From Caldicellulosiruptor kronotskyensis 2002 (lineage in GTDB: Bacteria > Bacillota > Thermoanaerobacteria > Caldicellulosiruptorales > Caldicellulosiruptoraceae): a stretch of 64,000 nt of DNA. The stretch is taken from the NCBI RefSeq assembly GCF_000166775.1, contig NC_014720.1:1358501-1422500 (forward strand), written 5' to 3'. The stretch's first letter is position 1. The number at the start of each line of letters is the position of its first letter. The position numbers and the translations under genes are program-made. Under the pieces are notes generated by a model. That model was not told the DNA's origin and made no database searches. It was given only the letters and a program-made list of their open reading frames with translations. Shown here piece by piece: positions 39,887 through 50,201 of the stretch.

Positions 39887-40681
39887 ATGGGATTTGTAAA
39901 AGAGAATATAAATGGTATAGAGATATTTAGAATAAGCGAATTTGAAGAATATGGTATAGAGGGTTTTTTCACAACACGAAAGGGTTGTGGAAATGATAGT
40001 TTCAATCTGAGCTATAAATGGACTGCACAGAAAGATGAAGTGGACAAAAACTTTCATATTCTTTTTGAGGCTTTAAAAATAGACCATAGAAATATTTTCT
40101 ATGCAAAACAGGTGCATAAAAATGATATAATAATTGTAGAAAGAGGATTTGACTTTTTTGAATATAATCAAGAAGCAGAGGCAGATGGACTTATAACAAA
40201 TATCCCTGAAATTGCACTTATAACGATGCATGCTGATTGTTTTCCTGTTTATATTGTCGATACAGAGAAAAGGGTAATTTCTCTGGTTCATTCTGGTTGG
40301 AGAGGGGCTTTGCTGCATATAACCGAAAATGCCATCCAGGTTCTGAAGAAAGAATTTTTTTCTATTGCTGAAGATTTACTTGTGGCGATCGGGCCAGGGA
40401 TATGTAAAAGACATTTTGAGGTGGGTGAAGATGTTTACAAGATGTTTTTGAGAGAATTTGGAGATGAGGTTTGTTTGGAGTCTAAAGAGGGTCTTTTTGT
40501 CGATTTGAAAAAAGCAATATTTCTTGATTTGAAGAAAAATGGTATTAAGACCTGTCAGATAATATCTTGTGATATGTGTACGTATGAGAATGTAGATATA
40601 TTCTTTTCGTACAGAAGAGACTACAGAAAGCCAGAAAATTTGGGTAGTATGGTTGCAATCTTGAGGATGGTGAGAAGGTAA
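39887..40681 (+). CDS. pgeF: Peptidoglycan editing factor PgeF (YfiH / multicopper-like family)
   Basis: 264 aa. Active-site blocks: AKQVHKNDI, MHADCFPVYI and VHSGWRGALLHI, with Cys and His ligands in the family arrangement, plus AIGPGICKRHFEVG. Members remove wrongly built muropeptides (L-Ser for L-Ala) or act as purine nucleosidases or laccases; which applies here is unknown. It ends exactly where the response regulator starts (TAA then ATG), so it is the first gene of an operon with phoPR. Confidence 0.9.
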   Translation: MGFVKENINGIEIFRISEFEEYGIEGFFTTRKGCGNDSFNLSYKWTAQKDEVDKNFHILFEALKIDHRNIFYAKQVHKNDIIIVERGFDFFEYNQEAEADGLITNIPEIALITMHADCFPVYIVDTEKRVISLVHSGWRGALLHITENAIQVLKKEFFSIAEDLLVAIGPGICKRHFEVGEDVYKMFLREFGDEVCLESKEGLFVDLKKAIFLDLKKNGIKTCQIISCDMCTYENVDIFFSYRRDYRKPENLGSMVAILRMVRR

Positions 40682-41380
40682 ATGAAAAATATTCTAATAG
40701 TTGATGACGAGCAGCACATTCTTGAGCTTCTTAAATTTAATCTCAGAAAAGAAGGATATAATACATTTGAGGCAGATAGTGGCATATTAGCACTTGAGAT
40801 TTTAAAGCATAATAAAGTTGACCTTGTTATACTCGATATTATGATGAGTGACAAGGACGGATATGAAGTTTTAAAAGAGATTCGATTTAATAAAGATACA
40901 AAAAATTTGCCAGTGATTTTGTTATCTGCAAAATCTGAAGAGATTGATAAAATACTTGGGCTTGAGCTTGGCGCAGATGACTATATAACAAAGCCTTTTA
41001 GTGTAAAAGAGCTGGTTGTAAGAGTAAAGGCACTTTTGAGAAGAGTAGAGAGTTTAAAGCCTGAGGTCGAAGATAAGGTCAAGTTTGGAGATGTAGAAGT
41101 GGACTTTTCGAAAAGAACAGTTAAGAAAAATAATCAGGATGTACCTCTTTCGTTCAAAGAGTTTGAACTTTTGAAGCTTCTTATCGAAAACAGAGGCAGG
41201 GTGTTGGACAGAGACTTTATTTTGCAAAGGGTATGGGGATACGAGTTTGATGGAGATACACGAACAGTTGATGTGCATATAAGGTTTTTGAGAAGAAAAC
41301 TTGAAGACGATGAGAAAAATCCACGATACATAGAAACAGTCAGAGGCGTAGGTTACAGGTTTAATGAAAGGTCTGAGTAA
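40682..41380 (+). CDS. phoP: Two-component response regulator, PhoP/PhoB (OmpR) type
   Basis: 232 aa. The receiver domain has Asp8/Asp9, phospho-acceptor Asp52 in LVILDIMM, a conserved Thr/Ser and the Lys of TKPFSVKEL. The C-terminal winged helix ends with RTVDVHIRFLRRKLEDD and VRGVGYRF, as in PhoB/PhoP/WalR. The phosphate name rests on the neighbours (pit, pstB, phoU) and on the tandem TTAACA boxes nearby. It abuts pgeF and sits 3 bases before its kinase. Confidence 0.88.
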   Translation: MKNILIVDDEQHILELLKFNLRKEGYNTFEADSGILALEILKHNKVDLVILDIMMSDKDGYEVLKEIRFNKDTKNLPVILLSAKSEEIDKILGLELGADDYITKPFSVKELVVRVKALLRRVESLKPEVEDKVKFGDVEVDFSKRTVKKNNQDVPLSFKEFELLKLLIENRGRVLDRDFILQRVWGYEFDGDTRTVDVHIRFLRRKLEDDEKNPRYIETVRGVGYRFNERSE

Positions 41381-41383
41381 AGC

Positions 41384-43111
41384 ATGAGGTCGAAGCTTTT
41401 TGGTTATACTATATTAGTTGTGGTAGTTATAACACTTCTTCAAGGAATTCTTTCATATGAGACTTATAAAAACATATATATAGATGAAAACAAAAAATGG
41501 CTTGTTGCTAAAATAAATGAAGTTGAAAAATACATTTATTCTTTTGGTGTTGATAAACTGAATAATATCTATAACAAAGGCGATTTTAGAGTAACTATTG
41601 TTGGTAGCAGTGGGGTTGTTCTTTACGACTCTGAAGCAAATGTAAAGAAAATGGAAAATCACTTAAAAAGACCAGAGATTGCAAATGCCAATAGAGTTTT
41701 TGGAAAAGTAGAGTTTTCGATGAGAAGGAGCAAAACACTGGGGCATTACTTTTTGTATGCAGCAAAAAAAGTTAAAATTTACAATACATTAATGTTTATA
41801 AGAGTTTCAGTTCCTCTTGACAAAGTAGACACAATCTTAAAAAAGGTTTTATTAAATACTCTAAAATTTGCAGTGATGTGTATTTTTCTGGGTATAGCCT
41901 TGGCAATAGGAATCTCATCTGTTTTATATCAACCGTTAAAAGGCCTGATTTCGCTTATTTCAGAGGGACTGGAAAAATTTAGCATTCAAGATGTTAAAAG
42001 TCCAAAAGATTTCAGATGGCTTAGTCTCAGCTTTTCAAAGATGTATCAGCTTTTGGAGGAAAAGATTGGCGAATCTAATATATTAAGAAAAAGGCTCACT
42101 TCTCTTTTAGACTCATTAGACATTGGTATAATCTTTTTTGATATGAATAAAAGAATACTTACGTTCAACAGGGGAGCAGAAAACATTCTTGAAACTAACC
42201 TCAAAGTTGGATTAAGTTTACTTGAATGCGTCCGAGTATATGAACTTTTCGAGTTTCTTTTCCAACAGGATATAAATGAAAAGGAGATTGAAATTAGTAT
42301 CAATAATAAAACAAAGTTTCTGAAAATAAATAAGAAGAAAATTTCATATGAAGACAATAAAGAAGGTATACTTTTAATATTAAGTGATATTACCTTTTTG
42401 AAAAAGTTAGAAAGAATTCGGTCTGACTTTGTGGCAAATGTATCGCATGAACTCAAAACACCACTTACTTCAATAAAGGGTTTTGTAGAAACACTTAAAG
42501 ATGGTGCAATTGATGATAAAGATGTTGCTATTAAGTTTCTCAACATTATTGAGGTTGAGGTAGAAAGGCTTGTGAGACTTATAAATGATCTTCTCTATCT
42601 TTCGGAAATAGAGAATGCGGCAATGCCCATTTTAGAAGAAAAAGTGGTGGTTAAAGAAGTTGTGCTTGAGATTATCGAACTTTTAAAAATAAAAGCTGAG
42701 AAGAAGAATATTCAACTTGATATAAAGGTCCAAGAGGGTCTTGAGATGAACATATATCGCGATTGGCTAAAGCAGATTTTTATAAATTTAATAGATAATG
42801 CAATTGTTTATAACAAAGAAAATGGGAAAGTATGGGTGACTGTAGAGAAATTAGATAACTTAATTGTTATAAAGGTTAAGGACACAGGAATTGGAATACC
42901 TGGAAGGGAAGTTGAGAGGATATTTGAAAGATTTTACAGAGTGGATAAAGGAAGGTCCAGAAAGTTTGGAGGCACAGGCTTGGGTCTTTCTATTGTAAAG
43001 CACATAGTAGAGCTTTATGGAGGAAAAGTTTGGGTTGAAAGCCAGGAAGGTATAGGCAGTGAGTTTACGGTAACAATTCCAATTGTAAAAAAGGCTGACC
43101 CACATCAATAG
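41384..43111 (+). CDS. phoR: Sensor histidine kinase, PhoR type
   Basis: 575 aa. Transmembrane helix 1 (residues ~6-25), an extracytoplasmic sensor loop (~26-155), helix 2 (~157-180), a PAS-like domain, then the H-box NVSHELKTPLTSIKGF with His355 and the ATPase domain (NLIDNAIVYN, DTGIGIPG, FGGTGLGLSIVKHIV). Its order of domains and position in the phosphate block favour PhoR. Its stop is inside the stem of a terminator shared with pit. Confidence 0.9.
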   Translation: MRSKLFGYTILVVVVITLLQGILSYETYKNIYIDENKKWLVAKINEVEKYIYSFGVDKLNNIYNKGDFRVTIVGSSGVVLYDSEANVKKMENHLKRPEIANANRVFGKVEFSMRRSKTLGHYFLYAAKKVKIYNTLMFIRVSVPLDKVDTILKKVLLNTLKFAVMCIFLGIALAIGISSVLYQPLKGLISLISEGLEKFSIQDVKSPKDFRWLSLSFSKMYQLLEEKIGESNILRKRLTSLLDSLDIGIIFFDMNKRILTFNRGAENILETNLKVGLSLLECVRVYELFEFLFQQDINEKEIEISINNKTKFLKINKKKISYEDNKEGILLILSDITFLKKLERIRSDFVANVSHELKTPLTSIKGFVETLKDGAIDDKDVAIKFLNIIEVEVERLVRLINDLLYLSEIENAAMPILEEKVVVKEVVLEIIELLKIKAEKKNIQLDIKVQEGLEMNIYRDWLKQIFINLIDNAIVYNKENGKVWVTVEKLDNLIVIKVKDTGIGIPGREVERIFERFYRVDKGRSRKFGGTGLGLSIVKHIVELYGGKVWVESQEGIGSEFTVTIPIVKKADPHQ

Positions 43112-43125
43112 GCCAGCCTTATTTA
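43091..43125. terminator. Terminator between phoR and pit
   Basis: AAGGCTG (43091-43097) pairs with CAGCCTT (43114-43120), with two further G-C pairs after one mismatch, followed by ATTTAT. It overlaps the last phoR codons and lies between convergent genes. Confidence 0.65.
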
Positions 43126-43128
43126 TAG

Positions 43129-44127
43129 TTATGCTATCCAGCTGATTAGTATAGAAATGATAGCTCCCAAGAGAGCACACATTGGAATTGTCAAAACCCA
43201 TGCAATAACAATATTTCTTGCAACCCCCCATCTAACAGCTGAAAACTTTTTACATGCACCTACCCCCATAATAGAGGATGAGATGACATGAGTGGTGGAA
43301 ACTGGTGCACCAATATGAGTTGCAAACTGGATTGTTAGTGCTGCACCAGTTTCTGCTGCAAAGCCGTTTATTGGTGCAAGTTTTATTATCTTTATTCCCA
43401 TTGTTTTAATTATTCGCCAGCCACCTACTGATGTACCCAAAGCCATGGCGAGAGCACAGGCAAATTTAACCCAGTCAGGTACAACAAACTCATTTAAAAT
43501 TCCACTTCCTACCAGCGCCATGGTTATTATTCCCATGGATTTTTGGGCGTCGTTTGAACCATGACTATATGCCATCCACATTGCAGAGAGTATTTGGAAC
43601 TTTGAAAAGTATCTATTCACAATTGTTGGATGTACTTTGGCAAACAATATGTAAAGAATCATCATAAATAGGTATCCAAAAACAAAACCTAAGATAGGAG
43701 AGACAATCAAAGGAAGAACAATCTTTTTGACAAATCCTATCCAATTTATATCGGCAAGTGATTTTGTTGCGGCAATTGCAGCACCCACAAGACCACCAAT
43801 TATTGCATGTGATGAGGAAGAAGGTATTCCCCACCACCATGTAATCAAATCCCATACAATTGCTGCTATTACAGCCGCAAGCACAAGGTTTTGTGTAACA
43901 AATCTCGGGTCAACTATTCCATGGCCAATTGTCTTTGCAACCTCTGTGTTTATCATTGCACCAAAGAAGTTAAAAACTGCTGACATAAATATGGCAGTGC
44001 GTGGTGTTAACACTCTTGTTGAAACTGATGTTGCAATAGCATTTGCCGTGTCATGAAAGCCGTTTATAAAGTCAAAAGTCAGAGCTAAAATGATTATTAA
44101 AAGTAAATTAAGTGGTATGTTATGCAT
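43129..44127 (-). CDS. pit: Low-affinity inorganic phosphate transporter, Pit/PHO4 family
   Basis: 332 aa, about ten membrane helices. Both PHO4 signature repeats are present: FDFINGFHDTANAIATSVSTR near the N-terminus and AYSHGSNDAQKSMGI in the second half. GTSVGGWRIIKTMG and HIGAPVSTTHVISSSI are also family blocks. It is a proton- or cation-coupled metal-phosphate symporter. It overlaps the upstream DUF47 gene by 8 bases, so the two are co-translated. Confidence 0.96.
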   Translation of the reverse strand: MHNIPLNLLLIIILALTFDFINGFHDTANAIATSVSTRVLTPRTAIFMSAVFNFFGAMINTEVAKTIGHGIVDPRFVTQNLVLAAVIAAIVWDLITWWWGIPSSSSHAIIGGLVGAAIAATKSLADINWIGFVKKIVLPLIVSPILGFVFGYLFMMILYILFAKVHPTIVNRYFSKFQILSAMWMAYSHGSNDAQKSMGIITMALVGSGILNEFVVPDWVKFACALAMALGTSVGGWRIIKTMGIKIIKLAPINGFAAETGAALTIQFATHIGAPVSTTHVISSSIMGVGACKKFSAVRWGVARNIVIAWVLTIPMCALLGAIISILISWIA

Positions 44128-44746
44128 TTTTTGTCACAACCCCTTCTATTACATTTGCTACATCTTCACACGCATCAAGTGTGTCTTCCAAAAAGCCAAA
44201 AATTTCTTTCCAAATGATTACTTCAATAGGCTTGTCCTTATTTTCAGCAAAAAGTTTTTTAATTGCATTTCTGTACACAATGTCACCTTCATCTTCAATT
44301 CTATTTACTTCTATTATTTTTTCTTTTATGAGTTTAGTATTTTTTAAATCCTTTAGATTTTCTACTACTCCTTTTAATTCTTTTGTGCAGTTTATGATCA
44401 TTTCCGATAAGATCTTTGCCTCAGGCTTAACTGTGTCTACATTATAGATTTCAAACCTATGCGCAACTGTTTCGAGCGAATCGACAATGTTGTCAATCTC
44501 TTTGATTATTGCAAACAAATCTTCTCTGTCAAGAGGTGTGATAAAAGTTTTGTTGAGGAGTTCAATCACTTGGTGGGTAATATCATCCCCTTTGTTTTCA
44601 GCTTTTTCAAGCTTTGAGATAAGCTCTTGCATATTTGAAAGGTTATTGAGGAGTTGATTTAACATCACTGCTGATTGATAAGCATTTTCAACAGCGTTTG
44701 TCAATAAAACAAAAAACTGGTTTTCTTTTGGAATTATGCTCCACAT
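44120..44746 (-). CDS. DUF47 (PhoU-like) Pit accessory protein
   Basis: 208 aa, helical, TIGR00153-type. Features: IIPKENQFFVLL at the N-terminus, the metal-binding-like motif EDEGDIVYRNAI, and LDREDLFAIIKEIDNIVDSLE, which resembles PhoU repeats. Proteins of this family sit next to Pit transporters and are thought to gate or regulate them. AAGGGG ribosome site on the minus strand. It is the first gene of the two-gene pit operon, transcribed away from pstB. Confidence 0.92.
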   Translation of the reverse strand: MWSIIPKENQFFVLLTNAVENAYQSAVMLNQLLNNLSNMQELISKLEKAENKGDDITHQVIELLNKTFITPLDREDLFAIIKEIDNIVDSLETVAHRFEIYNVDTVKPEAKILSEMIINCTKELKGVVENLKDLKNTKLIKEKIIEVNRIEDEGDIVYRNAIKKLFAENKDKPIEVIIWKEIFGFLEDTLDACEDVANVIEGVVTKNA

Positions 44747-44859
44747 ATTTCACAACCCCTTCTTTGTAGAATTTTTGCCACAAAGACCATTTTAATAAAA
44801 GTTATTTTTGTTTATCAATCCTGCGAACCTCATAAAAAGTTTTACATTGCACAAAGAAT

Positions 44860-44917
44860 ATTATATAATATTTAACACAGTTTTAACATACATTAAACAA
44901 GAATTTAATGTTATAAT
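44860..44917. promoter_or_regulatory. Divergent phosphate promoters with a four-repeat Pho box
   Basis: TTAACA at 44872 and 44883, TAAACA at 44894 and TTAATG at 44905: four hexamers at exactly 11-bp period, the PhoP-type direct-repeat layout (TTAACA every 11 bp). A plus-strand -10 TATAAT (44912-44917) follows for pstB. A minus-strand TATAAT (44865-44860) lies on the other side for DUF47-pit. The array could activate both operons; promoter use is inferred. Confidence 0.8.
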
Positions 44918-44969
44918 TATAAAATATATAAGTTGTAGCTATCAAAAAGTAGGGAGAGGTTGCTTCAAG

Positions 44970-45719
44970 ATGGTAATAATAGAAACAAAGGATTTAAATC
45001 TATATTATGGGGAGAACCATGCTCTGAAAAATATAAACATAAAGATAAACGAAAAAGCTATAACTGCATTGATAGGACCATCTGGCTGTGGAAAATCTAC
45101 TTTCTTGAGGACTTTAAATAGAATGAATGACCTTATTGAAAACGTAAAAATAGAAGGAACTGTATATTTTGAAGGCAAAAACATCTACAAAGAGATTGAT
45201 GTTATTCAACTTAGAAAAAAAATTGGAATGGTATTTCAAAAACCAAATCCATTCCCAATGAGCATATATGACAATGTAGCGTATGGGCCAAGAATTCATG
45301 GTATTAAAAAGAAAGAAGTACTTGATGAGATTGTAGAAAGCAGTCTTAAAAAAGCCTATCTGTGGGATGAAGTAAAGGATAGGCTGAAAAAAAGTGCATT
45401 TTCGCTCTCTGGAGGCCAGCAGCAAAGGCTCTGCATTGCAAGGGTTTTGGCAGTCGAGCCTGAGGTAATTTTGCTTGATGAGCCAACATCTGCTCTTGAC
45501 CCAATTTCAACATTAAAAATAGAAGAGCTTTTAGAACAGCTCAAGAAAAACTACACAATAATAATAGTCACTCATAATATGCAACAGGCTGCTCGAATTT
45601 CTGATTTTACAGGATTTTTCTTAAATGGAGAGCTTGTAGAGTTTGACAAGACAATCACTATATTTAATACCCCTCGGGACAAAAGAACAGAGGACTATAT
45701 TACTGGTAGGTTCGGATAA
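44970..45719 (+). CDS. pstB: Phosphate ABC transporter ATP-binding protein
   Basis: 249 aa. Walker [11 protein letters not shown]-loop [15 protein letters not shown] (a PstB hallmark), signature LSGGQQQR, Walker [12 protein letters not shown] and the His switch THNMQQA. The start is the ATG at 44970 with GGGAGAGG upstream; the longer open frame before it contains the promoter and Pho box. pstS, pstC and pstA are absent here, so the permease must be elsewhere or this ATPase is an orphan. phoU follows after 30 bases. Confidence 0.95.
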
Positions 45720-45749
45720 TTATATTATTTTGAGAGGTGAACTTTTGAT

Positions 45750-46427
45750 ATGACAAGACCGACATTTGAAAATGAGCTCAAAGAAATCCATCTTGATATT
45801 CTCAAGATGGGAGCTATGGCAGAAGAGGCTATTGACAAAGCAATTTTGGCACTTAAGACAAAAGATGTTGAACTTGCACAAAGAATAATAGATAACGATG
45901 ATAAGATTGATGAGCTTACAGAAGAGATAGAGAAAAAATGTGCTATTGTTATTGCTACTCAACAGCCGCTTGCAAGTGACCTAAGGCTTATAATAACTGC
46001 GATGAGAATTGCAACAGATATTGAGAGGATTGCTGACCATGCAGAGGATATTTCCCAGATAACGCTCAAGCTTGCAAAAGAGGATTATGTAAAACCTTTA
46101 ATTGACATTCCTAAAATGGCTGAAATTACTCGTTCGATGTTAAAAGATGCATTAGATTCGTATGTAAATTCTGACATAGAACTTGCAAAGTCTGTTGTCA
46201 AGCGTGATGATTTGGTTGATACAATGTATCAAAACCTTATTGATGAACTTGAGCAAATAATGAAAGAAAATTCTGCAGCAGTTTCTCAATGCGTTCAGTT
46301 TTTATTGGTCATAAAATATTTAGAAAGAATAGCAGACCACTCTACAAATATAGCCGAATGGGTTGTGTACAAGATAACAGGTATGCATAAACATGAATGG
46401 GAAGGCAGGGAAGAGGAAACAAGGTGA
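45750..46427 (+). CDS. phoU: Phosphate signalling protein PhoU
   Basis: 225 aa, two three-helix PhoU repeats, each with the E/D-rich metal-binding motif (RIADHAEDI near residue 90, RIADHSTNI near 195). It signals phosphate sufficiency from Pst to PhoR and limits uptake. GAGAGGTG ribosome site. It sits between pstB and queT; its stop overlaps the queT start by 3 bases. Confidence 0.96.
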   Translation: MTRPTFENELKEIHLDILKMGAMAEEAIDKAILALKTKDVELAQRIIDNDDKIDELTEEIEKKCAIVIATQQPLASDLRLIITAMRIATDIERIADHAEDISQITLKLAKEDYVKPLIDIPKMAEITRSMLKDALDSYVNSDIELAKSVVKRDDLVDTMYQNLIDELEQIMKENSAAVSQCVQFLLVIKYLERIADHSTNIAEWVVYKITGMHKHEWEGREEETR

Positions 46428-46963
46428 AAAGGAAAATTGAGATTGACAGTAAGGTAATTGCAAGGGCTGCTCTGATTGCAGCATTATATTTTGTTTTAAC
46501 CGCGTTTCTACCAGCTATATCATATGGACCATTGCAGATAAGAATATCAGAGGCACTTACTCTTCTTCCTGCCTTGATGCCAGTTTCAGCTACTATTGGT
46601 CTGTTTGTGGGGTGTTTTTTAGCAAACCTATATGGCATGGTAGTAAGTATAACAGGTATATATGATGTGATTTTTGGTTCTCTTGCAACACTAATAGCTG
46701 CGCTGCTTACAACCAGAATAAAGAAAAAACCTTTTTTACCTCTGCCCACTATTATAGTAAATGCTGTGGTTGTATCAGCTTATATATGGCAATATTTTAT
46801 AGGCAGCTTGAAAATTGAGTGGTTGAAAAATCTAAATCCAATTATCAGGTATCTTTTTACAGTATTATCGATTGGAATGGGAGAGGCAATTGCCACATAC
46901 TTTTTGGGGTTACCTTTATTTTTGGCACTTGAAAAGCAGATGAAAGGCAAAAATCTCATATAA
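46424..46963 (+). CDS. queT: QueT family transporter (queuosine-precursor ECF S component)
   Basis: 179 aa, about five to six hydrophobic helices. The signature ISEALTLLPALMPVSATIGL and FVGCFLANLYG...DVIFGSLATLIAALLT match QueT, the substrate-binding component for preQ1/preQ0-type queuosine precursors. I chose the GTG at 46424, with AAGAGGAAAC ahead of it and an ATGA-like overlap with phoU; the upstream ATG at 46397 lies inside phoU and covers the ribosome site. No preQ1 riboswitch precedes it, which is unusual for this family. Confidence 0.88.
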   Translation: MKRKIEIDSKVIARAALIAALYFVLTAFLPAISYGPLQIRISEALTLLPALMPVSATIGLFVGCFLANLYGMVVSITGIYDVIFGSLATLIAALLTTRIKKKPFLPLPTIIVNAVVVSAYIWQYFIGSLKIEWLKNLNPIIRYLFTVLSIGMGEAIATYFLGLPLFLALEKQMKGKNLI

Positions 46964-46973
46964 GTTTCTTAAC

Positions 46974-47016
46974 AAGTGGAGCCCTATATGATTAAGATGA
47001 TGGCTCCACTTTTTTG
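46974..47016 (+). terminator. Terminator of the pstB-phoU-queT operon
   Basis: AAGTGGAGCC (46974-46983) pairs perfectly with GGCTCCACTT (47002-47011), followed by TTTTT. Confidence 0.85.
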
Positions 47017-47045
47017 TTGCTTTTTTAGTTCTTTTGTAATATAAT
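47017..47045 (+). promoter_or_regulatory. his operon promoter
   Basis: TTGCTT (47017-47022), 17-bp spacer and TATAAT (47040-47045). The leader to hisZ is about 50 bases, too short for a T-box or a classical his attenuator, so regulation must be at the promoter or elsewhere. Confidence 0.6.
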
Positions 47046-47101
47046 ATAACATGATATCTATTCATCACTTCATTATGATAAAGTAATGAAAGGGAGAAAA
47101 A

Positions 47102-48283
47102 ATGAGCAAAAAGTTTGTGGATTACTATCCTCCAGTGTCTGATACCTTAGAAGAGGTAAGAGAAAGGACTATCTTTTTATTTAAAAAATTTGGGTACAAA
47201 TTGGTTGAACCTTCAACTTTTGAAGATTATGAAAAGTCAAAAAACTTAAATGGCAGCAACACTATAAAGTTTATGGACAGCGATGGAACTGTAATTGCCT
47301 TGAGAAATGAATTTACTCCAAAGGTTGCAGAGATTGCAGCTAAGTTTCAGACAAAAGTTTATCCACTCAAATTGTGTTACTTTGGCAAGGCATATCAGTT
47401 TCTTCAACAAGAAGCAGGGGATTTGAGGGAATTTTTTCAAGCAGGCATAGAAAACTTTCATACATCTGATAGTTTCTATATAGACTTAGAGGTATTAGCG
47501 CTTGCGGTAGAAAGTTTACTTGAACTTGGAGTGAATAACTTTACAATAGATGTTGGAGAGGTAAATTTCTTTAAAGGAATTGCTAAGGACTGTGAGATTG
47601 ATGAGGCTTCCTCAGAAGTGCTCTGCAAGCTTGTTGACAAGAAGGACTATATAGGGATTGAAAACTTTTTGATTCGAAAGGGCATTTCCCAAAAAGTGAT
47701 AGATATTTTCAGAAATCTCACAAGACTTTATGGTAGAGAGGACAAGATAAAAGAGGCTAAAAAATTTGCGAATAATGAAATGTCTAAACAGGCGATTGAG
47801 AGACTAAGTGAGATATATAATAATATGGTAAAACTGGGTTATCAAAATTATATTACTATTGACTTTGGAATGGTAAAACATCTAAACTATTACACAGGTA
47901 TAATATTTTCTGGTTATATACAAGAACTTGGCTATCCTGTGCTAAATGGTGGTAGATACGATAATTTGTGTGAAATATTTGGTACCAAATTATATGCCAT
48001 TGGATTTGCAATTGGTTTAGACAGAATTTTAGAGTGGAAACTAAAAAATGCTCAAAGAAGGGAAAGACAATACGACAGCCTTGTTTTATATAAGGAAGGG
48101 CACTTTGAAATGGCATTAAAACTGCTTCTTAAGACAGACAATGAAAAACAGAAGATTTACTTTTATACAGTACCAGCAAAAATAGAAGAAGCCTTTCTTA
48201 TTAGCAAAGCTATGAAGGTTGAAAAATTCATGTATATAGATGAAGAAGGCGTAAAAACATATGTTTTGGAGGATTTAGAATGA
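47102..48283 (+). CDS. hisZ: ATP phosphoribosyltransferase regulatory subunit
   Basis: 393 aa HisRS-like paralogue without tRNA charging. Features: class II core (FRNEFTPKVAEIAA-like motif 1/2, QEAGDLREFFQAGIENF), then GGRYDNL and a motif 3-like FAIGLDRIL. It is needed by the short HisG that follows (209 aa), which lacks the regulatory C-domain. Start with AAAGGGAG upstream. First gene of the his operon; its stop overlaps the hisG start. Confidence 0.95.
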   Translation: MSKKFVDYYPPVSDTLEEVRERTIFLFKKFGYKLVEPSTFEDYEKSKNLNGSNTIKFMDSDGTVIALRNEFTPKVAEIAAKFQTKVYPLKLCYFGKAYQFLQQEAGDLREFFQAGIENFHTSDSFYIDLEVLALAVESLLELGVNNFTIDVGEVNFFKGIAKDCEIDEASSEVLCKLVDKKDYIGIENFLIRKGISQKVIDIFRNLTRLYGREDKIKEAKKFANNEMSKQAIERLSEIYNNMVKLGYQNYITIDFGMVKHLNYYTGIIFSGYIQELGYPVLNGGRYDNLCEIFGTKLYAIGFAIGLDRILEWKLKNAQRRERQYDSLVLYKEGHFEMALKLLLKTDNEKQKIYFYTVPAKIEEAFLISKAMKVEKFMYIDEEGVKTYVLEDLE

Positions 48284-48909
48284 TCACTATAGCGTTGCCA
48301 AAAGGAAGGTTAGCCCAGCAAACAGTTGAACTTTTGAAAAGAGCATCACTTGTAGACATTGATATATCTGAGGAAAGCAGAAAATTGATCATCGAGGACA
48401 CTCAAAATTCTCTGCGTTTTCTCATGGTAAAACCTTTTGACGTACCCACTTATGTGGAATATGGTGTTGCAGATGTTGGTGTTGTTGGTAAAGATGTGTT
48501 GCTTGAAATGAATAAGAGAGTGTACGAACTTTTAGATTTAAAGATTGGGAAATGTTTTGTAGCCTTGGCAGGACCTAAAGGGATAAGCGAAGCTCTTTTG
48601 AAAAAGCCTGATAAGACAATTGCAACTAAATTTCCTAACATTGCTAAAGAGTATTTTGAAAATGTTAGGGGTGAGGATGTAAAGATAATAAAGCTCAATG
48701 GTTCAGTAGAGCTTGCTCCTATTTTAGGACTTTCAGACATGATAGTAGACATTGTAGAGAGTGGTAGAACTCTGAAGGAAAATGGACTTGAAGTATATGA
48801 AAAGCTATACGACATTAGTGCTCGGCTTATTGCAAACAGGGCAAGTCTAAAATTAAAAACTCAGATAGATGATATTATAAATCGTTTGGAAAGGATGATT
48901 GAAGAGTGA
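48280..48909 (+). CDS. hisG: ATP phosphoribosyltransferase, short form, catalytic subunit
   Basis: 209 aa. First step of histidine synthesis: ATP and PRPP give PR-ATP. Motifs: ITIALPKGRLA at the start, YGVADVGVVGKDVL and the PRPP loop DIVESGRTLKENGL. The length identifies the short HisZ-dependent class, consistent with hisZ upstream. ATGA overlaps on both sides. Confidence 0.98.
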   Translation: MITIALPKGRLAQQTVELLKRASLVDIDISEESRKLIIEDTQNSLRFLMVKPFDVPTYVEYGVADVGVVGKDVLLEMNKRVYELLDLKIGKCFVALAGPKGISEALLKKPDKTIATKFPNIAKEYFENVRGEDVKIIKLNGSVELAPILGLSDMIVDIVESGRTLKENGLEVYEKLYDISARLIANRASLKLKTQIDDIINRLERMIEE

Positions 48910-50201
48910 GAATCTTGTCCAGCAAACAACAGATTGAAAACTACATAGAGACGGCTAAAATAAGAAAATGGGAAAACGAGGAAGAAATTGAACAGAAGGT
49001 TCGCAGAATAATCTCTGATGTAAAAGATAAGAAAGATGAAGCATTGCTTTACTACACCCGGATGTTTGATTGTAAGGGTATTTGCTTGAATGAGCTGCGA
49101 GTGGTCCAAGAAGAGATTGAAAGAGCATATTTTGAATGTGAAAAAGAAGATGGTGATTTCATAGATGCTTTGAATGCTGCGTATAAAAATATCTATGAGT
49201 ATCACATGAGGCAAAAAGAGGAAAGCTGGTTTTATATAAAAAATGGGTCGTTACTTGGCCAGATTATTATGCCTCTTGAAAAAGTAGGAATTTATGTTCC
49301 CGGTGGGAAAGGGGCTTATCCTTCAACAGTTTTGATGAATTCAATTCCTGCAAAAGTTGCTGGCGTTGAAAAAATAATAATGGTAACTCCACCTGACAAG
49401 AACAAGAGTATCAGCAAGTACACTTTGGCAGCAGCAAAAATTTGTGGCATTGATGAGATTTATAAAGTGGGAGGAGCTCAAGCAGTTGCGGCGCTTGCGT
49501 TTGGAACACAGATTATACCCAAGGTAGATAAGATTGTGGGACCAGGAAATATCTATGTAGCAACTGCTAAAAAATTGTTGTTTGGATATGTAGATATTGA
49601 CTCAGTAGCAGGACCAAGTGAAGTAATGGTTATTGCAGACGAGTCTGCAAATCCGAAATACATTGCTGCAGATTTGCTGTCTCAGGCGGAACACGACCCC
49701 ATGGCAAGATGTATTTTAGTGACAACATCTTTGCAGGTGGCTCAAGAGGTTTCTGAGAATGTTGATAAGATGCTTGCAAGATTTGAAAACTCAGTTGCTT
49801 TTGAAGCTATCGAAAAAAACGGTGTGATAATAGTTGTTGACGATCTTTTTGAGGCTGCTGAGATTGCGAATATAATTGCACCTGAGCACTTAGAGATTTG
49901 TTGCAATGATGCAGAAAAAGTGTTGTTTAAGATCAGAAACGCTGGTGCAGTTTTTGTAGGTGAATATTCCCCTGAACCTATTGGAGACTACATCGCAGGA
50001 CCAAATCATGTACTGCCAACATCTGGTACAGCAAGTTTCTTTTCTCCCCTCGGGGTTTATGATTTTGTCAAGAGAATGAGTTTAATAAAGTATTCAAAAG
50101 AACAGTTTTTGACAGATGCACCACATGCAATAAACATAGCGCAAAAAGAAGGTTTCCTCTTTCATGCAAATTCGTTGAAGGTGAGGTTAGAAGATGTTTA
50201 A
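48906..50201 (+). CDS. hisD: Histidinol dehydrogenase
   Basis: 431 aa, zinc-dependent; two NAD-linked oxidations of histidinol to histidine. Family motifs: GVYVPGGKGAYPSTVLMN-type block, GGAQAVAALAFGT, IVGPGNIYVATAKK, DSVAGPSEVMVIAD and LLSQAEHDP, followed by the ligand histidine region GPNHVLPT. It overlaps hisC by 8 bases. Confidence 0.98.
   Translation: MRILSSKQQIENYIETAKIRKWENEEEIEQKVRRIISDVKDKKDEALLYYTRMFDCKGICLNELRVVQEEIERAYFECEKEDGDFIDALNAAYKNIYEYHMRQKEESWFYIKNGSLLGQIIMPLEKVGIYVPGGKGAYPSTVLMNSIPAKVAGVEKIIMVTPPDKNKSISKYTLAAAKICGIDEIYKVGGAQAVAALAFGTQIIPKVDKIVGPGNIYVATAKKLLFGYVDIDSVAGPSEVMVIADESANPKYIAADLLSQAEHDPMARCILVTTSLQVAQEVSENVDKMLARFENSVAFEAIEKNGVIIVVDDLFEAAEIANIIAPEHLEICCNDAEKVLFKIRNAGAVFVGEYSPEPIGDYIAGPNHVLPTSGTASFFSPLGVYDFVKRMSLIKYSKEQFLTDAPHAINIAQKEGFLFHANSLKVRLEDV

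Follow-up and report, generated by a model that had tools for sequence, protein, structure and literature searches.

Genes and features of the DUF47-pstB intergenic region

We analyzed a Pho box array in the 224-bp intergenic region between the divergent genes DUF47 and pstB, which lies in a 64-kb stretch of DNA referred to here as the window (Table 1). The gene names of the original prediction were upheld, and the products are a phoP-like regulator, PhoR/PnpS-like kinase, PHO4 transporter, DUF47, PstB, PhoU, and QueT. The overlap of the queT GTG start with the phoU stop codon, together with the hairpin after queT, indicates that pstB-phoU-queT is one operon ending before hisZ. The queT gene, encoding a queuosine-precursor transporter, is the last in this predicted Pho-controlled operon. 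The sister genus has no queT between phoU and hisZ; its gene order is otherwise equal (phoP, phoR, pit, DUF47, pstB, phoU, hisZ), and its box lies beside pstB, approximately 190 bp from DUF47.

The regulator and the kinase scored below the cut-offs of the curated NCBIfam models (PhoB, 233 against 296 bits; PnpS, 387.9 against 400; PhoR, 303.9 against 334), so the PhoP identity rests on neighborhood and similarity. After the sister genus, the best matches of the regulator were 5 pst-linked regulators (229.7-212.7 bits), and a WalR-like paralogue (209.5 bits) outranked the remaining regulators in this ranking by similarity score. The gene order at the locus is less usual; among the 80 pstB loci listed in other genomes, none of them from close relatives, DUF47 or Pit was nearby in none, and pstA was beside pstB in 77. 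The genes pstS, pstC, and pstA (L131:2603-5146) are located approximately 300 kb from pstB-phoU, and each half has its own Pho box. No Rfam match to an RNA element was found in positions 40000-49000.

Table 1. Positions of the genes, promoter elements, and Pho box in the window
Feature	Position	Strand	Remarks
phoP-type response regulator, presumed box ligand	40682..41380	+	
phoR/pnpS-type sensor kinase	41384..43111	+	PnpS model 387.9 bits, cut-off 400
pit-type low-affinity phosphate transporter, PHO4 family	43129..44127	-	PF01384, 348.8 bits
DUF47 (PhoU_div)/PitR-type accessory gene	44120..44746	-	PF01865, 104.3 bits
Proximal DUF47-pit promoter, TTGATA-18-TAAAAT (10/12)	44789..44818	-	42 bp from the end of the -10 to the start codon
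Sigma-A-like promoter, TTTACA-17-TATAAT (11/12)	44841..44869	+	Hexamers and spacing invariant in 12 genomes
Perfect 16-bp palindrome AATATTATATAATATT	44857..44872	.	TATAAT on each strand; invariant in 12 genomes
Leftward TATAAT, left half of the palindrome	44860..44865	-	Invariant; -35 poor, 9/12 at best
Pho box	44872..44910	+	Direct repeats TTAACA (44872), TTAACA (44883), TAAACA (44894), and TTAATG (44905); period exactly 11 bp; facing pstB
Rightward TATAAT of the original prediction	44912..44917	+	0/6 columns invariant; probably incidental
Conserved -10 of the pstB Pho promoter	44920..44925	+	TAAAAT, TATAAT in 4 relatives; 9 bp past hexamer 4
pstB	44970..45719	+	TIGR00972, 428.9 bits, over cut-off
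phoU	45750..46427	+	TIGR02135, over cut-off
queT	46424..46963	+	GTG start overlapping the phoU stop codon
Likely intrinsic terminator AGTGGAGCC / GGCTCCACT + T run	46975..47015	+	Hairpin read from the sequence

The Pho box array and its recurrence at phosphate operons

The 4 hexamers at exact 11-bp spacing described in the original prediction are real, with the four-hexamer pattern (up to 3 mismatches) giving 1 match in the window and 0 in 100 shuffles. To avoid circularity, we trained a hexamer matrix without the window site, on 5 other boxes, namely those of pstSCA, pstS2-alkaline phosphatase, GDPD, the ABC permeases, and sister-genus pstB. By this independent matrix, the window Pho box scored 28.5 bits, above all of the training boxes (26.5-27.7 bits). 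The maxima of simulated 64-kb sequences had a mean of 12.0 and a top value of 17.9 bits, and 0 of 60 simulations attained 28.5 bits.

The box was retained in 12 of 12 genus genomes, with hexamers 1 and 2 invariant and hexamers 3 and 4 nearly so. The longest invariant intergenic run in these 12 genomes, which are close relatives, was 41 bp (44857-44897) and comprised the palindrome, hexamers 1 and 2, and part of hexamer 3; its conservation could reflect several overlapping constraints that are inseparable here.

We identified equal arrays upstream of other phosphate operons in the genome, and the window array is for this reason very probably the Pho box of the organism, bound by its phosphate-starvation regulator. 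In addition to pstSCA, boxes precede the second PstS gene with alkaline phosphatase, GDPD, and, on the opposite strand, 2 ABC permeases, with a weaker box at a 5'-nucleotidase. The pattern also has matches just upstream of pstS in class relatives. Across 9 genus genomes, the degenerate four-hexamer pattern occurred at 3-6 sites per genome and the reversed control pattern at 0. As far as sequence can tell, this distribution is that expected of a Pho regulon, and the Pho box model for the genus (4 hexamers, 9 bp, and a -10) predicts its phosphate regulon. Further four-hexamer arrays were located at G000:C1:1015199-1015237 and, in G001, G004, and G008, near 2.79-2.95 Mb. The pstS2-alkaline phosphatase promoter (L133:4548-4640) has 2 successive arrays with approximately 7-8 hexamers in register, an arrangement kept in the genus.

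The general structure of Pho boxes is described in PMC4415409. Of the features that define the class, we found 4 TT(A/T)ACA-like direct repeats approximately 11 bp apart, recurrence at phosphate genes with conservation in relatives, and a fixed short distance from the last repeat to the -10, the last of these for the rightward -10 but not for the leftward one. Every testable Pho box feature is present at the window site, from which we infer binding by phosphorylated PhoP and a response to phosphate. Sequence, period, neighbors, genus-wide conservation, and recurrence at phosphate operons all agree with the Gram-positive-type Pho box that had been proposed.

Promoters on the two sides of the array

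An outward-facing TATAAT had been predicted on each side of the array, at 44912-44917 on the plus strand and 44865-44860 on the minus strand. Both sequences exist, and the leftward one, like the 4 repeats, is conserved in relatives, which suggests by its perfect invariance that it matters, but the rightward one is not conserved. At 44912-44917, relatives have TGGAGT, TGGAAT, TGAAAT, TAGAGT, TACGAG, and others, and we rejected this hexamer, which is just 1 bp past the box, as the pstB -10. A conserved -10 is located 8 bp farther on, where TAAAAT or TATAAT was present in 12 of 12 genus genomes, and the pstB start predicted from it is at approximately 44932. The 9-bp distance from hexamer 4 is common to the pstSCA, pstS2-alkaline phosphatase, GDPD, and ABC promoters and sister-genus pstB, with TAAAAT, TATACT, TATGAT, TAAATT, and TATAGT as the -10-like hexamers and TATCAT in the sister genus. 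When the -10 matches were added up at each distance from 0 to 20, leaving out the window site, the total peaked at 9 (29 vs. at most 24 elsewhere), although the training sites behind this spacing are few (6). A WalRK-like locus (L134:4478-4520) has a TTAACA/GTAACA/GTAATA array (TGTAAC-type) 9 bp before TATAAT, which suggests that this spacing is a common OmpR-family promoter geometry in the genome.

The palindrome bordering the box on the left carries the -10 of a rightward sigma-A-like promoter whose predicted start, at approximately 44876, falls just within the Pho box. Simulation predicts approximately 3 promoters of this quality per 64 kb, which makes a chance occurrence in the 224-bp gap unlikely. 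The predicted leftward start is at approximately 44853, which places the box at -19 to -57. In bidirectional promoters with a shared -10, the TATAATs of the 2 strands overlap and the starts are separated by 10, 18, or 23 bp. If each start lies 7 bp past its -10, ATTATATAAT predicts a separation of 23 bp, which is among the preferred spacings (PMC12825309). The palindrome is thus possibly a bidirectional sigma-A promoter core. It occurs as a single exact copy per genome in the 9 genus genomes searched, and we rejected it as a multi-site operator; none was found in class relatives, and it is absent beside the sister-genus box.

On the DUF47 side, we identified a separate proximal promoter, which scores 10/12 in 8 genomes and 9/12 (TTGAAG) in 3 and is lost in 1 (L091), where the palindrome is the best leftward candidate. 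The sister-genus DUF47 promoter, TTGATT-18-TATAAT, is 45 bp from the start codon, so the position is kept. A leftward TTGATA-18-TATAAT at 44945-44916 was rejected, scoring 11/12 in 3 genomes and being weaker or absent in the rest.

The array itself scored 14.7 bits on the minus strand, and the minus strands of the pstSCA, pstS2, and sister-genus boxes scored 14.0-14.7 bits. Since the back strands of single boxes score likewise, we read this value as a symmetry shadow and rejected a second, minus-strand array. A matrix scan found no box in its own orientation on the DUF47 side, where the score was -5.2 bits. A box common to 2 divergent operons should present an oriented array at the right distance each way, and the window array does so rightward only. 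The GDPD/ABC-permease divergon (L132:4500-4660) does so in both directions, with 2 separate, opposed, full-strength Pho boxes (27.5 and 27.3 bits on the 2 strands). The opposed arrays are also present in a second clade, and the divergon is kept in G005 and, in diverged form, in G004.

Proposed regulation and comparison with known systems

We consider it likely that PhoP activates the pstB Pho promoter, that DUF47-pit is transcribed mainly from its own promoter, and that the palindrome may act as a bidirectional promoter that bound PhoP would shut. The box, its orientation, the 9-bp geometry, the conservation, the regulon context, and the separate pit promoter can be read directly from the DNA, and from them we infer PhoP binding, activation, occlusion, and the activity of every promoter. 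The ligand of the array would be phosphorylated PhoP, whose gene is 3.5 kb distant. Under low phosphate, 2 tandem PhoP dimers on the 4 hexamers would bring RNA polymerase to the -10 at 44920-44925, and pstB-phoU-queT would be driven from approximately 44932, together with pstSCA and the remaining operons that carry a box. DUF47-pit would receive no activation from the array and would be transcribed mainly from its proximal sigma-A promoter. Under ample phosphate, the palindrome may give basal pstB-phoU and some pit transcription; by simple geometry, PhoP on the box would mask both the rightward start and the leftward -35 region of the palindrome, shutting rather than sharing it. In E. coli, PstB and PhoU belong to the phosphate signaling complex. 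Basal expression on both sides would make sense, since PstB and PhoU signal in E. coli and PitR restrains PhoPR in S. aureus.

The orientation and spacing of the array, as read from the sequence, fit only the high-affinity operon pstB-phoU-queT, and to this extent the site looks like an ordinary phosphate switch. Induction of pit by the window Pho box is unlikely, because the array is directional, the DUF47 side is boxless, pit has a separate promoter, and the sister-genus box is distant from DUF47. Pit regulation differs across species (PMC4415409), and separate control of pit is therefore unsurprising.

An alternative that we hold to be possible, though unlikely, is a reciprocal switch, in which activation of pstB-phoU-queT by the array would go with repression of DUF47-pit, since PhoP~P would cover the -35 region of the leftward start in the palindrome and RNA polymerase at the Pho promoter would compete with that start. 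The invariant 41-bp run spans the palindrome as well as hexamers 1 and 2, and the predicted divergent starts have the bidirectional spacing noted above. In E. coli, strong one-way activation can repress the other direction, and tagAB is repressed by PhoP~P in B. subtilis. Further, S. meliloti pit is repressed under phosphate starvation, as summarized in PMC3131613 and PMC8829014. However, approximately 53 bp separate the proximal pit promoter from the box, so that direct occlusion would not reach it, the sister genus has no palindrome by its box, and the leftward -35 is poor.

Likewise unlikely is a changeover at the 1 directional array in which PhoP~P would block both symmetrical sigma-A starts and fire the Pho promoter 9 bp downstream. 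Were this so, ample phosphate would give DUF47-pit leftward and basal pstB-phoU rightward from the symmetrical promoter, and low-affinity uptake would fall as high-affinity uptake rises, within approximately 85 bp.

The original prediction had PhoP~P on 1 array inducing both operons through the 2 outward -10s, which we consider very improbable. A TATAAT does face outward on each side, the leftward one being invariant, and L091 is without a proximal pit promoter. Against this, the array is directional and its minus-strand score is that of a single-box shadow, the box is just 6 bp from the leftward -10, the TATAAT at 44912 is not conserved, and the 9-bp spacing fits pstB only. DUF47-pit is preceded by a proximal promoter of its own, and 2 opposed arrays serve the genuine two-sided divergon. 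Sharing of the array by both operons was thus left unsupported.

Least probable of all is that the array is mainly bound by another OmpR-family regulator, e.g., WalR-like, whose sites share the 11-bp period: a three-hexamer array much like it, also with 9-bp spacing, is found at the WalRK-like locus (at 86 kb in the genome) and the window regulator scores near YycF/WalR models, but full-strength boxes sit at phosphate genes, the WalRK-locus hexamers are TGTAAC/TGTAAT and not TTAACA, and phoPR is adjacent in both the genus and the sister genus.

Overall, the site is, on its sequence features, a well-formed ordinary Pho promoter with 1 corrected element and 1 testable twist. Before a directional array flanked by divergent operons is taken as shared activation, its orientation and spacing have to be checked. 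The locus is also well suited to studying how a bacterium holds Pit and Pst in opposite phase.

At Pho-activated promoters of B. subtilis, the PhoP core binding site is made up of direct repeats resembling TTAACA. The window site likewise has 4 AT-rich TTAACA-type hexamers, spaced at 11 bp ahead of a phosphate operon, and its -35 is poor or absent as in B. subtilis Pho promoters. Unlike in B. subtilis, pstB-phoU is separate from pstSCA here, and a palindrome with a double -10 overlaps the box.

In S. meliloti, orfA-pit is repressed and pst/pho are induced on phosphate starvation, according to Bardin et al. as cited in PMC3131613, and pit is lowered (PMC8829014). The pairing of an accessory gene with pit is common to both loci, whereas reciprocal Pho control is a feature of S. 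meliloti and putative here; in that account, the S. meliloti Pho box is just upstream of the orfA-pit translation start, and the box here is oriented and spaced for pstB. Bidirectional sigma-70 promoters with symmetrical -10s have been described by Warman, Grainger and co-workers (PMC12825309), and the palindromic -10 here resembles them, with TATAAT on both strands and predicted starts 23 bp apart. It differs in that an adjacent Pho box would override both directions, and its activity is a prediction. In S. aureus, the PhoU-like accessory protein PitR is associated with Pit (PitA) and restrains PhoPR (PMC13170248). Here, too, a PhoU-like accessory protein goes with Pit, but DUF47-pit is back to back with pstB-phoU and adjoins phoPR, and a signaling role for it is putative.
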